DNA from: Lentisphaerota bacterium
GTDB taxonomy: Bacteria; Verrucomicrobiota; Kiritimatiellia; PWTM01
Assembly: GCA_016873715.1 (NCBI GenBank)
Contig: VGWF01000003.1
Coordinates: forward strand, 1 to 64,000
Reading direction: 5' to 3'
Length of the DNA stretch: 64,000 bases
In this document: positions 12,017-54,334 of the stretch, in pieces
Numbering within the stretch: position 1 is the first letter of the stretch
How the letters are laid out: every line of letters begins with the position of its first letter
Program-made: the position numbers and the translations under genes
The notes under the pieces: model-generated
The model's database searches: none
The model's input: the letters and a program-made list of their open reading frames with translations, nothing else
What the model was told of the DNA's origin: nothing

Positions 12017-12030
12017 GCCGGGGAACGGAA

Positions 12031-12150
12031 GCGGAGAGCACAGAGCGAAGAGCACAGAGCGGAGAGCAGAGAGCGGAGAGCAGAGAGCGGAGAGCCCCGA
12101 GCGGAGAGCACAGAGCGGAGAGCGTAGGGCGGAGAGCGCAGAGCGGAGAG
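12031..12150. repeat. Tandem array, 14-bp period (2x7), consensus GCGGAGAGCacaga, about 8.6 copies
   Basis: Parses without indels as heptads GCGGAGA/GCACAGA/GCGAAGA/GCAGAGA... Confidence 0.9.
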
Positions 12151-12175: not shown

Positions 12176-12295
12176 GTTGGTTGTTGGCTGTTGGATGTTC
12201 GATGGTGGTAGTTCGTTGTTGAATGTTGGTTGTTCGGTGTTCGATGTTGGATGTTCGATGTTGGATGTTGGACGTTGGTTGTTGGTTGTTGGCTG
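12176..12295. repeat. Tandem array, 7-bp period, consensus GTTGGWT, about 17 copies
   Basis: GTTGGTT GTTGGCT GTTGGAT GTTCGAT ... GTTGGTT GTTGGCT without indels. Confidence 0.92.
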
Positions 12296-12386: not shown

Positions 12387-13610
12387 GTGAGCGCACGTCC
12401 AGACAGCATCGACGATCTTCGCATCGACCGGACCGGCGAGGACGCCCCCCGTCCCCGCATCGGTACGGTCGTGGCCGTGATCGTCGTCCTCGCCCTCCTG
12501 GCGGCCGCCGCCTTCGGCCTCTCCGCCGGCCGCGGCCCCGAGGTGCGCACCGTCGCCGCCCGCGAGGCCGCGGCGGAATCCGGCGGCCCCCGCACCGTCC
12601 TCAACGCCTCGGGCTACGTCGTCGCGCGCCGCCAGGCCACGGTCTCGTCGAAGATCACCGGCAAGGTCATCGAGGTCCTCGTCGAGGAGGGCATGAAGGT
12701 CGCCGACGGCCAGGTCCTCGCCCGCCTCGATGACGCCAACGTGCGGACCGGGCTCAACCTTGCGGAATCGGAGCACACCGCCGCACGCGCGGCGCTGGCC
12801 GAAACCCGCGTCCGCCTCGACGAGGCCCGCGTGGAGTTCGGCCGTATCCAGCGGCTCGCCGCGGCGGACCTGACCACCACCTCGGAGCTCGACCGCGCCC
12901 GCGCCTCGGTCCAGTCGCTCGAGGCGCGCATCGAACAGCAGGACGCGCAGGCGCAGGTCGCCGGCCGGCAGGTCGACGTCTGGAAGCAGCAGGTGGAGGA
13001 CGCCGTCATCCGCGCGCCCTTCTCCGGCATCGCCACCTCCAAGAACGCCCAGCCGGGCGAGATGATCTCCCCCGTCTCCGCCGGCGGCGGCTTCACGCGC
13101 ACGGGCATCGGAACCATCGTCGACATGGATTCCCTCGAGATCGAGGTCGACGTCAACGAGAGCTACCTTCACCGGGTCCGTCCCGGCCAGCCGGTCGAGG
13201 CCTCGCTCGATGCCTATCCGGACTGGAGGATCCCCTGCAAGGTCTTCGCGATCATCCCCACGGCCGACCGGCAGAAGTCGACCGTCAAGGTCCGCGTGAA
13301 GTTCGACCGCCTCGACCCGCGCATCCTGCCCGACATGGGCGTGAAGGTCGCGTTCCAGGGCGCCCCCGGCGATGGAACTCCCGCCGTGGCCACGGTCCTC
13401 GTGCCCGAGGCCGCCATCCGGCACGTCGACGGCCGGGCCACCGCATGGGTCGTCGGGAACGGCCACCTCCAGCTCCGCGCCCTCACCGTGGAGACCGCCC
13501 GCGCGGGCCAGGTTTCCGTCACGTCCGGCCTGAAGGCGGGCGAGCGGGTCGTCGTCGACGGCCCCGCCTCCCTCCGGGAGGGCGGCCGCGTGCGCGAGGC
13601 GGCACGATGA
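12387..13610 (+). CDS. Efflux periplasmic adaptor (MFP/HlyD/MacA-type)
   Basis: [38 protein letters not shown]; coiled coil; [23 protein letters not shown]. Confidence 0.9.
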
Positions 13611-13644
13611 GCGCCCTGCGGGCGGCGCGGGGCGGGCCGGTCGC

Positions 13645-14358
13645 ATGAACGGCGCGGCGCCGGCCCCGGCGGACGATCTCCTCGTCCGGGTTGAGGACGT
13701 CGAGAAGGCGTTCCATCGCGGCGAGGAGGTGATCCACGTCCTGCGCGACCTCCACCTGACCATCCCGCGCGGCGAGTTCCTTGCGCTGATGGGTCCCTCC
13801 GGCTCCGGCAAGAGCACGCTGCTCAACCTCCTGGGCGGCCTCGACCGGCCCACGCGCGGACGCGTGATCGTCGACGGCCGGCGGATCGACCGTCTCTCCG
13901 ACCGCCAGCTCGCGGCGTGGCGCGCGCGCCACGTCGGACTCGTCTTCCAGTTCTACAACCTGCTCCCCGTCCTGACCGCCGAACGCAACGTCGAACTCCC
14001 GCTGCTGCTCGCGCCGCTCACCCGCGTCCAGCGCCGCCGCCACGTCGCGGCCGCGCTGGGCATCGTCGGCCTGTCCCACCGCGCGCGCCACTACCCGCGG
14101 CAGCTCTCCGGCGGCGAGCAGCAGCGCGTGGGCATCGCCCGCGCGCTGGTGACCGACCCGAGCCTGCTGCTGTGCGACGAACCCACCGGCGACCTCGACC
14201 GCCGGTCCGGCGACGGGATCCTCGACCTCCTCCAGGCCCTCAACCGCGAACACGGCAAGACCATCGTGATGGTCACGCACGATCCCCACGCCTCCGCGCG
14301 CGCCACGCGCGTGGTGCACCTCGACAAGGGCCGCCTCGGCACGGAGGCGCCCCCGTGA
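13645..14358 (+). CDS. ABC transporter ATP-binding protein (MacB/LolD-type)
   Basis: Walker [10 protein letters not shown]; signature [15 protein letters not shown]; Walker [13 protein letters not shown]. Confidence 0.95.
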
Positions 14359-14383
14359 ACGCCGCCCGCATCCGCCCCGGCCC

Positions 14384-15538
14384 ATGAAGTACCTCCCCCT
14401 CGTCTGGGCCGGCCTCCGGCGCCGGAAGCTGCGGTCGCTGCTGACGCTGCTCTGCATCCTCGTCGCGTTCGTCCTCTTCGGCTACCTCTGCGCCATCGGC
14501 CGCGCGATGGACCAGGGCGCCAGCGTCGCCGGGGCCGACCGTCTGATGGTCCGCCACCGCGTCTCGATCACGCAACCGCTCCCCGTCAGCTACAAGGCGC
14601 GCATCGAGCGCATCCCCGGCGTCGCGCTTGTCGCGCATTTCTCCTGGTTCGGAGGCATCTACCGCGAACCCGGCAACTTCTTCCCCCAGATGGCCGTCGA
14701 ACCCGGCCCCCACCTCGCCATGTACCCGGAGTACCTGCTGCCGGAGGACCGCAGGCAGGCGTGGCTCGCCACCCGCACCGGCGCGATCGCCGGCCGCAGG
14801 ACCGCGGAGAAGTACGGGTGGAAGGTCGGCGACCGGATCCCGATCCAGGCCACCGTCTGGCGCCGGATGAACGGCGACACCACCTGGGAGTTCGACCTCG
14901 TCGGCATCTTCGACGGCGCGAAGCCGGAGACCGACACCACCGGGTTCTTTTTCCGCTACGACTGCCTCGACGAGGGGCGGCTCTTCGGCAAGGGGATCGT
15001 CGCCTGGTACACCGTCCGCGTCTCGAACCCGGAGGAGGCCGCCGACGTCGCGCGGCGGATCGACGAGGAGTTCGCCAACGCCTCCGCCGAGACCAAGTCC
15101 GAGACCGAGGGCGCGTTCCTCCGCGGCTGGGCCCGGCAGATCGGCGACATCTCCACGATCCTCGCCTCCGTCCTCGGCGCCGTCTTCTTCACCATCCTCC
15201 TCGTCGCCGGCAACACGATGGCGCAATCGGTCCGGGAGCGAACCTGCGAGATCGGCGTCCTCAAGGCCCTCGGGTACACCCATGCCGGCGTGCTCTCGCT
15301 GGTCCTCGCGGAGTCGTGCCTTCTCTCCGTCCTCGGGGCCGCGGGCGGACTGGCCGTTGCCTCGGTCCTCGTCGCCGCCGGCGATCCGACCCGCGGCGCG
15401 ATGCCGATGTTCCACTTCCCGGCCGCGGACGTGCTCGCCGGCCTCGGGTGGGCGCTGGCGCTGGGCGTCGTCGCCGGGCTCCTGCCGGCGCTCCACGCGA
15501 TGCGGCTCCGCGTGGCCGACGCGCTGCGGAGGACCTAG
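14384..15538 (+). CDS. ABC transporter permease (FtsX/MacB-type)
   Basis: RSLLTLLCILVAFVLFGYLCAIG; C-terminal FtsX-like VRERTCEIGVLKALGYTHAGVLSLVLAES. Confidence 0.9.
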   Translation: MKYLPLVWAGLRRRKLRSLLTLLCILVAFVLFGYLCAIGRAMDQGASVAGADRLMVRHRVSITQPLPVSYKARIERIPGVALVAHFSWFGGIYREPGNFFPQMAVEPGPHLAMYPEYLLPEDRRQAWLATRTGAIAGRRTAEKYGWKVGDRIPIQATVWRRMNGDTTWEFDLVGIFDGAKPETDTTGFFFRYDCLDEGRLFGKGIVAWYTVRVSNPEEAADVARRIDEEFANASAETKSETEGAFLRGWARQIGDISTILASVLGAVFFTILLVAGNTMAQSVRERTCEIGVLKALGYTHAGVLSLVLAESCLLSVLGAAGGLAVASVLVAAGDPTRGAMPMFHFPAADVLAGLGWALALGVVAGLLPALHAMRLRVADALRRT

Positions 15539-15561
15539 CGGGCGCGGGGCGCCCCACGGAC

Positions 15562-15612
15562 GACGGAAGACGGAAGACGGAAGACGGAAGAACGGGAGAA
15601 CGGAAGAACAGT
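15562..15612. repeat. Tandem array, 7-bp period, consensus GACGGAA
   Basis: GACGGAA x4 then degenerate GAACGGGA GAACGGA AGAACAG; sits between two permease genes. Confidence 0.85.
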
Positions 15613-15613
15613 G

Positions 15614-16810
15614 ATGGGATTCGTCAGCTGGCTCTCGCAGGTCGGCTCGGTCACGAAGCTGAGCCTCGAGACGATCGTCGAGCGCAAGGGCGCCTCGGCC
15701 GCCGCCGTCTTCGGCATCGCGGGGGTCGTCGCCGTCTTCGTCGCGGTCCTGTCCGTCGCGGAGGGCTTCCGCCGCGTGATGACCGCCTCCGGCGACCCGT
15801 CGGCGGCCATCGTGATGCGCGCCGGATCGGACACCGAGATGATGAGCATCCTCTACGGCACGGGGGTCCGCGTCATCGACGACGCGCCCGGCATCGCGCG
15901 CTCCGCCTCCGGTCCCCTCGCTTGCCGCGAGCTGTTCGTCGTCATCAACCTGCCCCGGCGCTCCAGCGGCATGGATGCCAACGTCCCGCTGCGCGGTCTC
16001 GGCGCCAATGCCTTCGAGGTCCACGACCGGGTCCGCATCGTCGAGGGCCGGCGGTTCACGCCCGGCTGCAACGAGGTGATCGTCGGCGTGGGCGCCTCGC
16101 ACGAGTTCGCCGGCCTCGACCTCGGCGCCGAACTGAAGGTGGGGCGCAACCGGTGGAGGGTCGTCGGGATCTTCACCGCCGGCGGCGGGCTGCCGGAGTC
16201 CGAGATCTGGACCGACGCCGTCGTGCTGCAGGCGGCCTACCACCGCGGCAACAGCTTCCAGACCGTCCGCGTCAAGCTCGCATCGCCCGACTCGTTCGAC
16301 GCGTTCCGCGACGCCCTTCTCGCCGACCCGCGCCTGACCGTGAAGGCGATCCGCCTGCAGGACTACTACGCCGAGCAGTCGCGCACCGTCCAGAACCTGA
16401 TCACCGGCCTTGGCACCCTCGTCGCGGCGCTGATGGGCATCGGCGCCTCGTTCGGCGCGCTGAACACGATGTACTCCGCCGTCGCCACCCGCACGCGGGA
16501 GATCGCCACCCTACGCGCCCTCGGTTTCGGAAGCGCCCCGATCGTGATCTCCATCCTCGCCGAGTCGCTCGTGCTCGCGTCGCTCGGCGGGCTTGCCGGC
16601 GCCGCGGTGGCCTACGGGATCTTCGACGGCTTCCGCGCCGCCACCCTCAACTGGCAGAGCTTCAGCCAGGTCGCCTTCGCCTTCGACGTCACCCCCGCCC
16701 TCCTCGCACAGGGCGGCGGCTGCGCGATCCTCATCGGCGTCATCGGGGGCCTCTTCCCCGCCCTCCGCGCCGCCCGCATCCCGGTCGCCACCGCCCTGCG
16801 CGAGACCTGA
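15614..16810 (+). CDS. Second ABC transporter permease (FtsX/MacB-type)
   Basis: TRTREIATLRALGFGSAPIVISILAESLVLASLGGLAGA; 4-TM topology. Confidence 0.9.
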   Translation: MGFVSWLSQVGSVTKLSLETIVERKGASAAAVFGIAGVVAVFVAVLSVAEGFRRVMTASGDPSAAIVMRAGSDTEMMSILYGTGVRVIDDAPGIARSASGPLACRELFVVINLPRRSSGMDANVPLRGLGANAFEVHDRVRIVEGRRFTPGCNEVIVGVGASHEFAGLDLGAELKVGRNRWRVVGIFTAGGGLPESEIWTDAVVLQAAYHRGNSFQTVRVKLASPDSFDAFRDALLADPRLTVKAIRLQDYYAEQSRTVQNLITGLGTLVAALMGIGASFGALNTMYSAVATRTREIATLRALGFGSAPIVISILAESLVLASLGGLAGAAVAYGIFDGFRAATLNWQSFSQVAFAFDVTPALLAQGGGCAILIGVIGGLFPALRAARIPVATALRET

Positions 16811-53491: not shown

Positions 53492-54334
53492 TCACTTCTT
53501 CTCGGACTTCTCCTTCCCGGCCTTGGGCGCGGCTTCCTTCGCGGGAGCGGCACCCTTCGCGGCGGGAGCGGCACCCTTCGCGGCGGGAGCGGCACCCTTC
53601 GCGGCGGGAGCGGCCCCCTTCGCGGCAGCGGCGCCCTTCGCGGGAGCGCCCTTCGCGGCGCCTTCCTTGCCGCCCTCGGCTTCCTCGCCCTCCTCCGGCT
53701 TCTTCGCCGTGATGACCTCGGGCTCGGCGGCGGCCTCGCCCTCGGCGGGCGCGGCGACCTCTTCCTCGGCCTTCGGCATCGACACGGCCGCGATGGCGAC
53801 ATCGGCGCCGGTCACGATCGCGTACTTGGCGGGGTCGAGCTTGATGTCCTTCACCGAAAGGTGCTTTCCGACCGCCAGCCCCGCGACGTCGATCGGGATC
53901 TCCTCGAGGATGTCCGCCGGCAGAGACTCGACCTCGATCGTGCGGAGCAGGTGGTCCAGGATGCCGCCCTCCTGCGTCACGCCGACCGGTTCGCCCACCA
54001 GCCTCAGCGGCACGGAGACGCGCAGCTTGCGGGTCATCGACACCTCGTAGAAGTCGATGTGCGTCACGCGCCCGTCGATCGGGTGGTGCTGCATCGCCTT
54101 GAGCAGGACCTTGCGGGGCTTGCCGCCCGCGACGTCGAGGTCGACGAGCATCTGCTCGCTGTGGTGGCGCTTCATCATCTGGGCGAAATCATGCGCGACG
54201 ATCTGCACGTTCTCGCCGGCCCTGCCCTCGCTGTACACGACGGCGGGGATCCGGCCCTCGCGGCGCAGGCGCCCCATGGCCGAACTCCCGACCCGGTCCC
54301 GGGGCTCCGCCTTGACGGTGATGGTTTCCTTCAT
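53492..54334 (-). CDS. rplY: 50S ribosomal protein bL25/CTC family with low-complexity tail
   Basis: RDRVGSSAMGRLRREGRIPAVVYSEG; IDGRVTHIDFYEV; between prs and pth. Confidence 0.93.
   Translation of the reverse strand: MKETITVKAEPRDRVGSSAMGRLRREGRIPAVVYSEGRAGENVQIVAHDFAQMMKRHHSEQMLVDLDVAGGKPRKVLLKAMQHHPIDGRVTHIDFYEVSMTRKLRVSVPLRLVGEPVGVTQEGGILDHLLRTIEVESLPADILEEIPIDVAGLAVGKHLSVKDIKLDPAKYAIVTGADVAIAAVSMPKAEEEVAAPAEGEAAAEPEVITAKKPEEGEEAEGGKEGAAKGAPAKGAAAAKGAAPAAKGAAPAAKGAAPAAKGAAPAKEAAPKAGKEKSEKK
53541..53624. repeat. 21-bp tandem repeat in the 3' end of rplY, encoding (AAKGAAP)n
   Basis: GCGGGAGCGGCACCCTTCGCG x3 perfect plus near-perfect fourth copy. Confidence 0.92.

Follow-up and report, generated by a model that had tools for sequence, protein, structure and literature searches.

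An intergenic heptamer array in a Lentisphaerota bacterium is one of dozens of heptanucleotide repeats whose period appears to outlast their sequence

Array C and its operon

In a 64,000-nt stretch of the genome of a Lentisphaerota bacterium (the window, positions 1 to 64,000 of contig VGWF01000003.1), a tandem array of heptamers, which we call array C, runs between two permease genes of one operon and ends at the start codon of the second. The locus raises the questions of what made this array, whether it acts on the gene that follows it, and why its units should be 7 nt long.

The operon, like the other features mapped below between 12026 and 16810, lies on the forward strand. It encodes an HlyD-type membrane fusion protein (12387..13610; Pfam PF16576 and PF13437), an ABC transporter ATPase (13645..14358; PF00005), permease 1 (14384..15538), which has an FtsX domain and a MacB_PCD match below the Pfam cut-off, and permease 2 (15611..16810), which has both MacB_PCD and FtsX domains and starts at either GTG 15611 or ATG 15614. 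A 75-nt gap separates these two FtsX/MacB-type permease genes, and direct reading shows a short GC-rich stretch in it, followed by array C. The consensus of the array is ACGGAAG (GACGGAA in another phase). Five 7-bp units (15556..15590; ACGGACG, then four copies of ACGGAAG) are followed by two 8-bp units (15591..15606; AACGGGAG and AACGGAAG), in which one A has been inserted, identically in both, and these by AACAGTG and the ATG. TRF calls the array at 15556-15607, with period 7, 7.1 copies and 89% matches, and the period-7 run scores 26, whereas no run exceeded 14 when the whole window was dinucleotide-shuffled 60 times. Direct reading and TRF thus confirm the preliminary description of a heptamer array between the permease genes, and the array does run directly up to the start of permease 2; the period of 7 given there applies to the five heptamers and not to the last two full units, which are octamers.

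Upstream of the array, RNA folding predicts a small GC hairpin (15540..15554). Folded whole, the permease spacer is no more stable than its shuffles (z -1.13), and we rejected RNA structure as the basis of array C on this ground. We also looked for an inverted partner of array C and found none, so that it lacks the palindromic hairpin or inverted pair that marks REP and BIME elements.

Permease 2 seems to have lost its original ribosome site to the array. GGAGG at 15528..15532, in the 3' end of permease 1, is the likely ancestral Shine-Dalgarno sequence of permease 2 and now lies 81 nt from its ATG; in many homologous operons GGAGG likewise falls within permease 1, near its end, and precedes the start of permease 2 by 2-15 nt. 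GGAAG in the last unit of array C (15602..15606), 7 nt before ATG 15614, resembles a Shine-Dalgarno sequence. The computed anti-Shine-Dalgarno pairing of the 20 nt before this ATG is -6.9 kcal/mol (gene median -5.75, random median -3.2). Judging from these sequences, with GGAGG so far off, the last GGAAG may be the present ribosome site of permease 2, and array C, taken by itself, might tune its translation.

The stretch from the fusion protein to the second permease (12387-16810) seems foreign to the host's family. We found no close match to permease 2 among 8 same-family genomes searched; homologs 56-67% identical occur in Verrucomicrobiota, Acidobacteriota and Gammaproteobacteria MAGs. Since the operon is missing from those 8 genomes, array C can be compared only with distant homologs.

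A period census of the host genome

The preliminary description predicted that a genome-wide census of repeat periods would show a sharp excess at 7 and 14 bp. We scanned 80 stretches of 20 kb together with the window (1.664 Mb, or 32% of the 5.13-Mb draft) for runs scoring at least 18, and found such an excess at 7, 14 and 21, with little at other periods. There were 57 runs at period 7, 41 at 14, 30 at 21, 24 at 28 and 21 at 35, against 7 at period 8, 6 each at 16 and 24, 1 at period 6 and 0-4 at the rest. A dinucleotide shuffle of the census DNA yielded no runs at any period. Letter agreement in called intergenic DNA, which involves no threshold, likewise peaks at lags 7, 14 and 21, above a residue of multiples of 3.

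Merging of the runs gave 55 arrays of a 7-bp class and 9 of an 8-bp class. Outside called genes lie 46 of the 55 heptamer arrays, in a sample of which about 89% is called coding by our own codon-usage model, which is not a standard annotation. The arrays occupy co-directional (22), divergent (9) and convergent (10) spacers, and the convergent type is over-represented, with 10 of 41 arrays on 10% of intergenic bases. Neighbouring arrays are mostly direct (26, versus 5 inverted), and 5 of 67 contig starts fall within arrays, where 0.5 would be expected. Array C is one of dozens of heptanucleotide simple sequence repeats in a host genome that is exceptionally rich in heptamer arrays.

At least seven different heptamer consensuses occur in this genome. 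The commonest family has the unit GTTSGNT, found in array B (12176..12292), and its reversed control motif has no match at all; further units are ACGGAAN (array C), AGCNNAG (array A, 12026..12150, which has a 14-bp higher-order period), CCCTCGY, CCCGACA, AACTTGA and TGGGTGC. Arrays A and B were called by both TRF and the census. GACGGAA arrays are found on at least 15 host contigs, in either orientation and on either side of genes. The consensuses of A, B and C had been described as unrelated, and this holds in the window; elsewhere in the genome, consensuses merge in one 7-bp phase, as in L011, L016 and L138, where one gives way to another without a break in the phase. Variation among the units of an array is confined mostly to two or three columns, five of the seven being nearly fixed in many arrays, and units close together resemble one another more than units far apart do, to a degree that none of 500 permutations of unit order reached.

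The octamer units of the host include GTGGCGGT and CACACCGC. We noted a weaker class of 8-bp arrays (GTGGCGGT, CACACCGC, TTCGCAGG) at L166 16961-17144, L183 1-109 and L172 6026-6073; octamer arrays in L172 and L159 pass directly into heptamers.

Consensus turnover at fixed sites

A ribF-like gene in g21, another genus of the class, allows one site to be followed across related species. In 10 of 12 congeners it carries an in-frame, period-7 insert at the same site (L146 about 1480-1580, L275, L276 and L277-L286), built of two roughly complementary arms; the insert is absent from the other two of the twelve, G058 and G066. A lag-7 peak is present in all ten species, with agreement of 0.46-0.65, the short insert of G064 being the weakest. 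In the closest pair, G046 and G061, the flanks are 86% identical, but the inserts, at 52%, are no more alike than when shuffled (50%); between G023 and G046 the corresponding values are 83%, 54% and 51%. The inserts of G059 and G060 are still similar (89%), and such pairs indicate that replacement of the consensus is recurrent and not constant. At a second site, the repeats of G056 and G046 differ in both length and sequence. In these alignments the period survives while the sequence is often replaced. Where the consensus has fully turned over and the step has been kept, a sequence-specific function is an unlikely cause of the step. Turnover in ten species thus parts period from sequence, and opens directly the question of what sets the 7-nt step.

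The permease spacer itself can be compared across other operons. Across 75 homologous operons the median gap between the permease genes is 3 nt, and several long spacers bear heptamers: GTAATCA/TGATTAC arms in L068, where a scan confirmed that the arms are inverted, TTCGGCY in L083, detected by a period scan, and, read by eye, CGAACAT/GTTGAAT in L093 and L115 and AGTGAAA/TTTCACT in L103. Since their consensuses are unrelated, this one spacer must have acquired heptamers more than once. In permease loci outside the host's family (647 kb), period 7 again leads, its 6 runs comparing with 3 of period 8 and 2 of period 9. In another bacterium, the permease gap of L067 holds two inverted GTAGGTCGGGCTTTACGCCCGAC hairpins that resemble a REP doublet.

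Heptamers in other genomes

A search of 58 genomes found the GACGGAA motif in 17 of them, while its reversed control was mostly missing. Of 240 genomes of the class, 50 carry GTTSGNT arrays, the host being the richest; a Limisphaerales MAG has them as well. Other genomes prefer other heptamers, such as TTCTGNC in G009 and CTCYGTT in G016; with masked N stretches excluded, genomes of this sort have 9 genuine period-7 runs versus one each at periods 8 and 9. A literature search found no report of heptamer repeats in Verrucomicrobia or Kiritimatiellota. The persistence of a 7-nt step across the class, largely independent of sequence, is the point that deserves attention.

In six genomes (G079, G013, G122, G130, G157 and G180), GTTSGNT arrays often form pairs in opposite orientation, separated by a few dozen to about 200 nt, and in every match listed the AAC arm comes first. 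This order did not extend to all families: a fixed polarity of inverted pairs, with the A-rich arm first, failed a systematic scan, which gave 3 A-first and 2 T-first pairs in host DNA. An exact 26-base GACGGAA array is present on three viral contigs (L289-L291, IMG/VR).

Comparison with known heptanucleotide repeats

Array C fits a known kind of sequence, the long heptanucleotide simple sequence repeat. As related in PMC4679880 and PMC4692102, Mrazek (2007) described such repeats as the most frequent of the long classes in many bacteria, and Mrazek, Guo and Shah (2007, PNAS) offered slippage as their explanation. Array C consists of tandem 7-nt units, is longer than chance allows and lies between genes, and unit length 7 is in excess throughout the census (57, versus 1 at 6 and 7 at 8). 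To the extent that these two papers describe them, Mrazek-type repeats resemble those of the host in having tandem 7-nt units beyond chance, 7 as the commonest unit length and slippage as the proposed origin, while the host differs in its many imperfect families and its in-phase changes of consensus, and replacement of the consensus at a fixed site is documented in its relatives. The idea of a period-selecting process, raised in the preliminary description, is supported by the census excess and by the retention of period where the consensus is replaced, but it is not new, since both the heptanucleotide excess and slippage had been published. For this excess, reported since 2007, we found no tested cause in the literature.

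Other described repeats share some features with array C. The GGGNATC and GGGGAYT repeats of Xanthomonas and Nostoc are likewise dispersed intergenic heptamers with fixed and variable positions and some inverted pairs, and they vary between related species (PMC4692102). Unlike GACGGAA, however, they form G-quadruplexes (PMC4692102); in array C, GGG occurs only in the degenerate unit AACGGGAG and not in every unit, and we rejected a quadruplex repeat for that reason. TAACTGA repeats, known from marine Beggiatoaceae, cyanobacteria and Bacteroidetes, also form intergenic heptamer arrays, and in one genome they lie mostly a few nt upstream of a start codon, as array C does (PMC4679880). They have a single consensus, with related heptamers rare (PMC4679880), whereas the host shows a variety of consensuses, and its arrays keep no regular position ahead of start codons. 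The consensus of array C, ACGGAAG, is a different one, and although array C itself abuts a start codon, this is no rule among host arrays, which occupy all types of spacer. The heptanucleotide repeats of Calothrix and the cyanobacterial STRR, as cited in PMC4692102, similarly comprise several heptamer families per genome, with different sequences and in a different host group.

Origin of the arrays

What has to be explained is the excess of one period, the intergenic bias, the local homogeneity of units and the replacement of the consensus at fixed sites in relatives. We favour, at somewhat better than even confidence, the simplest account, in which slippage during replication, strongly favouring a step of 7 nt, produced array C and still renews it; the arrays in general probably arise by such copying slips and not through a separate job for each. 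Slipped-strand misalignment during DNA replication would build array C in 7-nt steps and, on rare occasions, 8-nt ones. As adjacent units are duplicated and point mutations accumulate, the consensus would drift and give way to another, but the period would stay. Array C would occupy a site that tolerates extra DNA, parting permease 2 from the GGAGG in the end of permease 1, and the last units, being rich in purines, would by chance supply a weak ribosome-binding site.

Slippage would explain the local homogeneity, the turnover at fixed sites and the intergenic bias. It would also explain the identical 7-to-8 change in two successive units of array C, because duplication of a unit would give such copies, and the surplus of contig starts inside arrays, because long or variable arrays would break contigs. 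Both slippage as the agent and the absence of a general function are inferred from these patterns. MutS suppresses slippage of short units, and MutS is present in the host genome; we therefore rejected loss of mismatch repair as the cause.

Slippage alone does not account for a step of 7 and not 5, 6 or 9, nor for the complementary inverted arms of other genomes, which need template switching as well. The limitation of variation to certain columns, and the recurrence of the GTTSGNT skeleton at many loci and in the Limisphaerales MAG, hint at sequence constraint or shared descent. For the step itself, Mrazek and colleagues proposed, as PMC4679880 and PMC4692102 relate it, that 7 nt is the contact length of a polymerase.

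Array C might instead be a translational rheostat: it would hold the permease 2 start apart from the older GGAGG and put tandem weak, purine-rich sites in its place, the balance between the two permeases being set by copy number. The array abuts the start codon, its last units pair with the anti-Shine-Dalgarno sequence with a strength typical of gene leaders, and GGAGG is now 81 nt from the ATG where in many homologs it is within about 15 nt of the start. Homologous operons nevertheless manage without an array, and host heptamer arrays are as often found in divergent and convergent spacers, the latter beyond expectation. Since arrays occupy all spacer types and GACGGAA faces either way, upstream control is not the common role of the heptamer family; a ribosome-site role of array C would be a local consequence, and we regard the rheostat as unlikely.

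Rather improbable, in our view, is a sequence-independent 7-nt process, acting through polymerase, repair or template switching, that would rewrite arrays and inverted arms alike, so that the period is inherited and the sequence is not.

We consider it very unlikely that the arrays are sites for a nucleoid or regulatory protein, with one heptamer per monomer and the period kept by selection. Near-fixation of five of seven columns in many arrays would suit such a protein, as would the occurrence of GTTSGNT at many loci with its reversed control almost absent. A protein of this kind is hard to reconcile with at least seven consensuses in one genome and with replacement of the consensus at one site within a genus. 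Nor is 7 bp a helical repeat, so successive sites would face different sides of the helix; heptamers of the SARP type, by contrast, have a spacing of about 11 bp.

We give equally little credence to copying or movement of the arrays by a dedicated activity, whether a mobile hairpin, a REP-type Y1 transposase or an enzyme that copies a 7-nt template. One motif is indeed scattered over many contigs, and the ribF insert and homologous permease spacers contain complementary inverted arms; array C, however, has no inverted partner, neighbouring arrays of the host are mostly direct, and arrays change gradually in phase, unlike cassettes. The host has only 3 weak matches to Y1 transposases, while genomes with many of these have few such arrays, and we rejected spread by a Y1/REP transposase given the scarcity of the domain in so array-rich a genome.

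Assembly artefact or chance periodicity can hardly be the answer: the draft is in 289 contigs and arrays do lie at contig ends above expectation, but array C is well inside an 83-kb contig, and chance was rejected by the shuffles of both the census DNA and the window and by recurrence of the motif, with its reversed control mostly absent, in the genome and the class.

Other repeats

Two further kinds of repeat were met. Dispersed intergenic repeats of 23-36 bp around GGTCCCACCGGGC, with a palindrome-like core and unrelated to the heptamers, lie at L160 11504-11665, L188 8966-9059, L190 14090-14157 and L214 17646-17791. In the window, five 21-bp repeats (GCGGGAGCGGCACCCTTCGCG) occupy 53541-53643, within a called gene.
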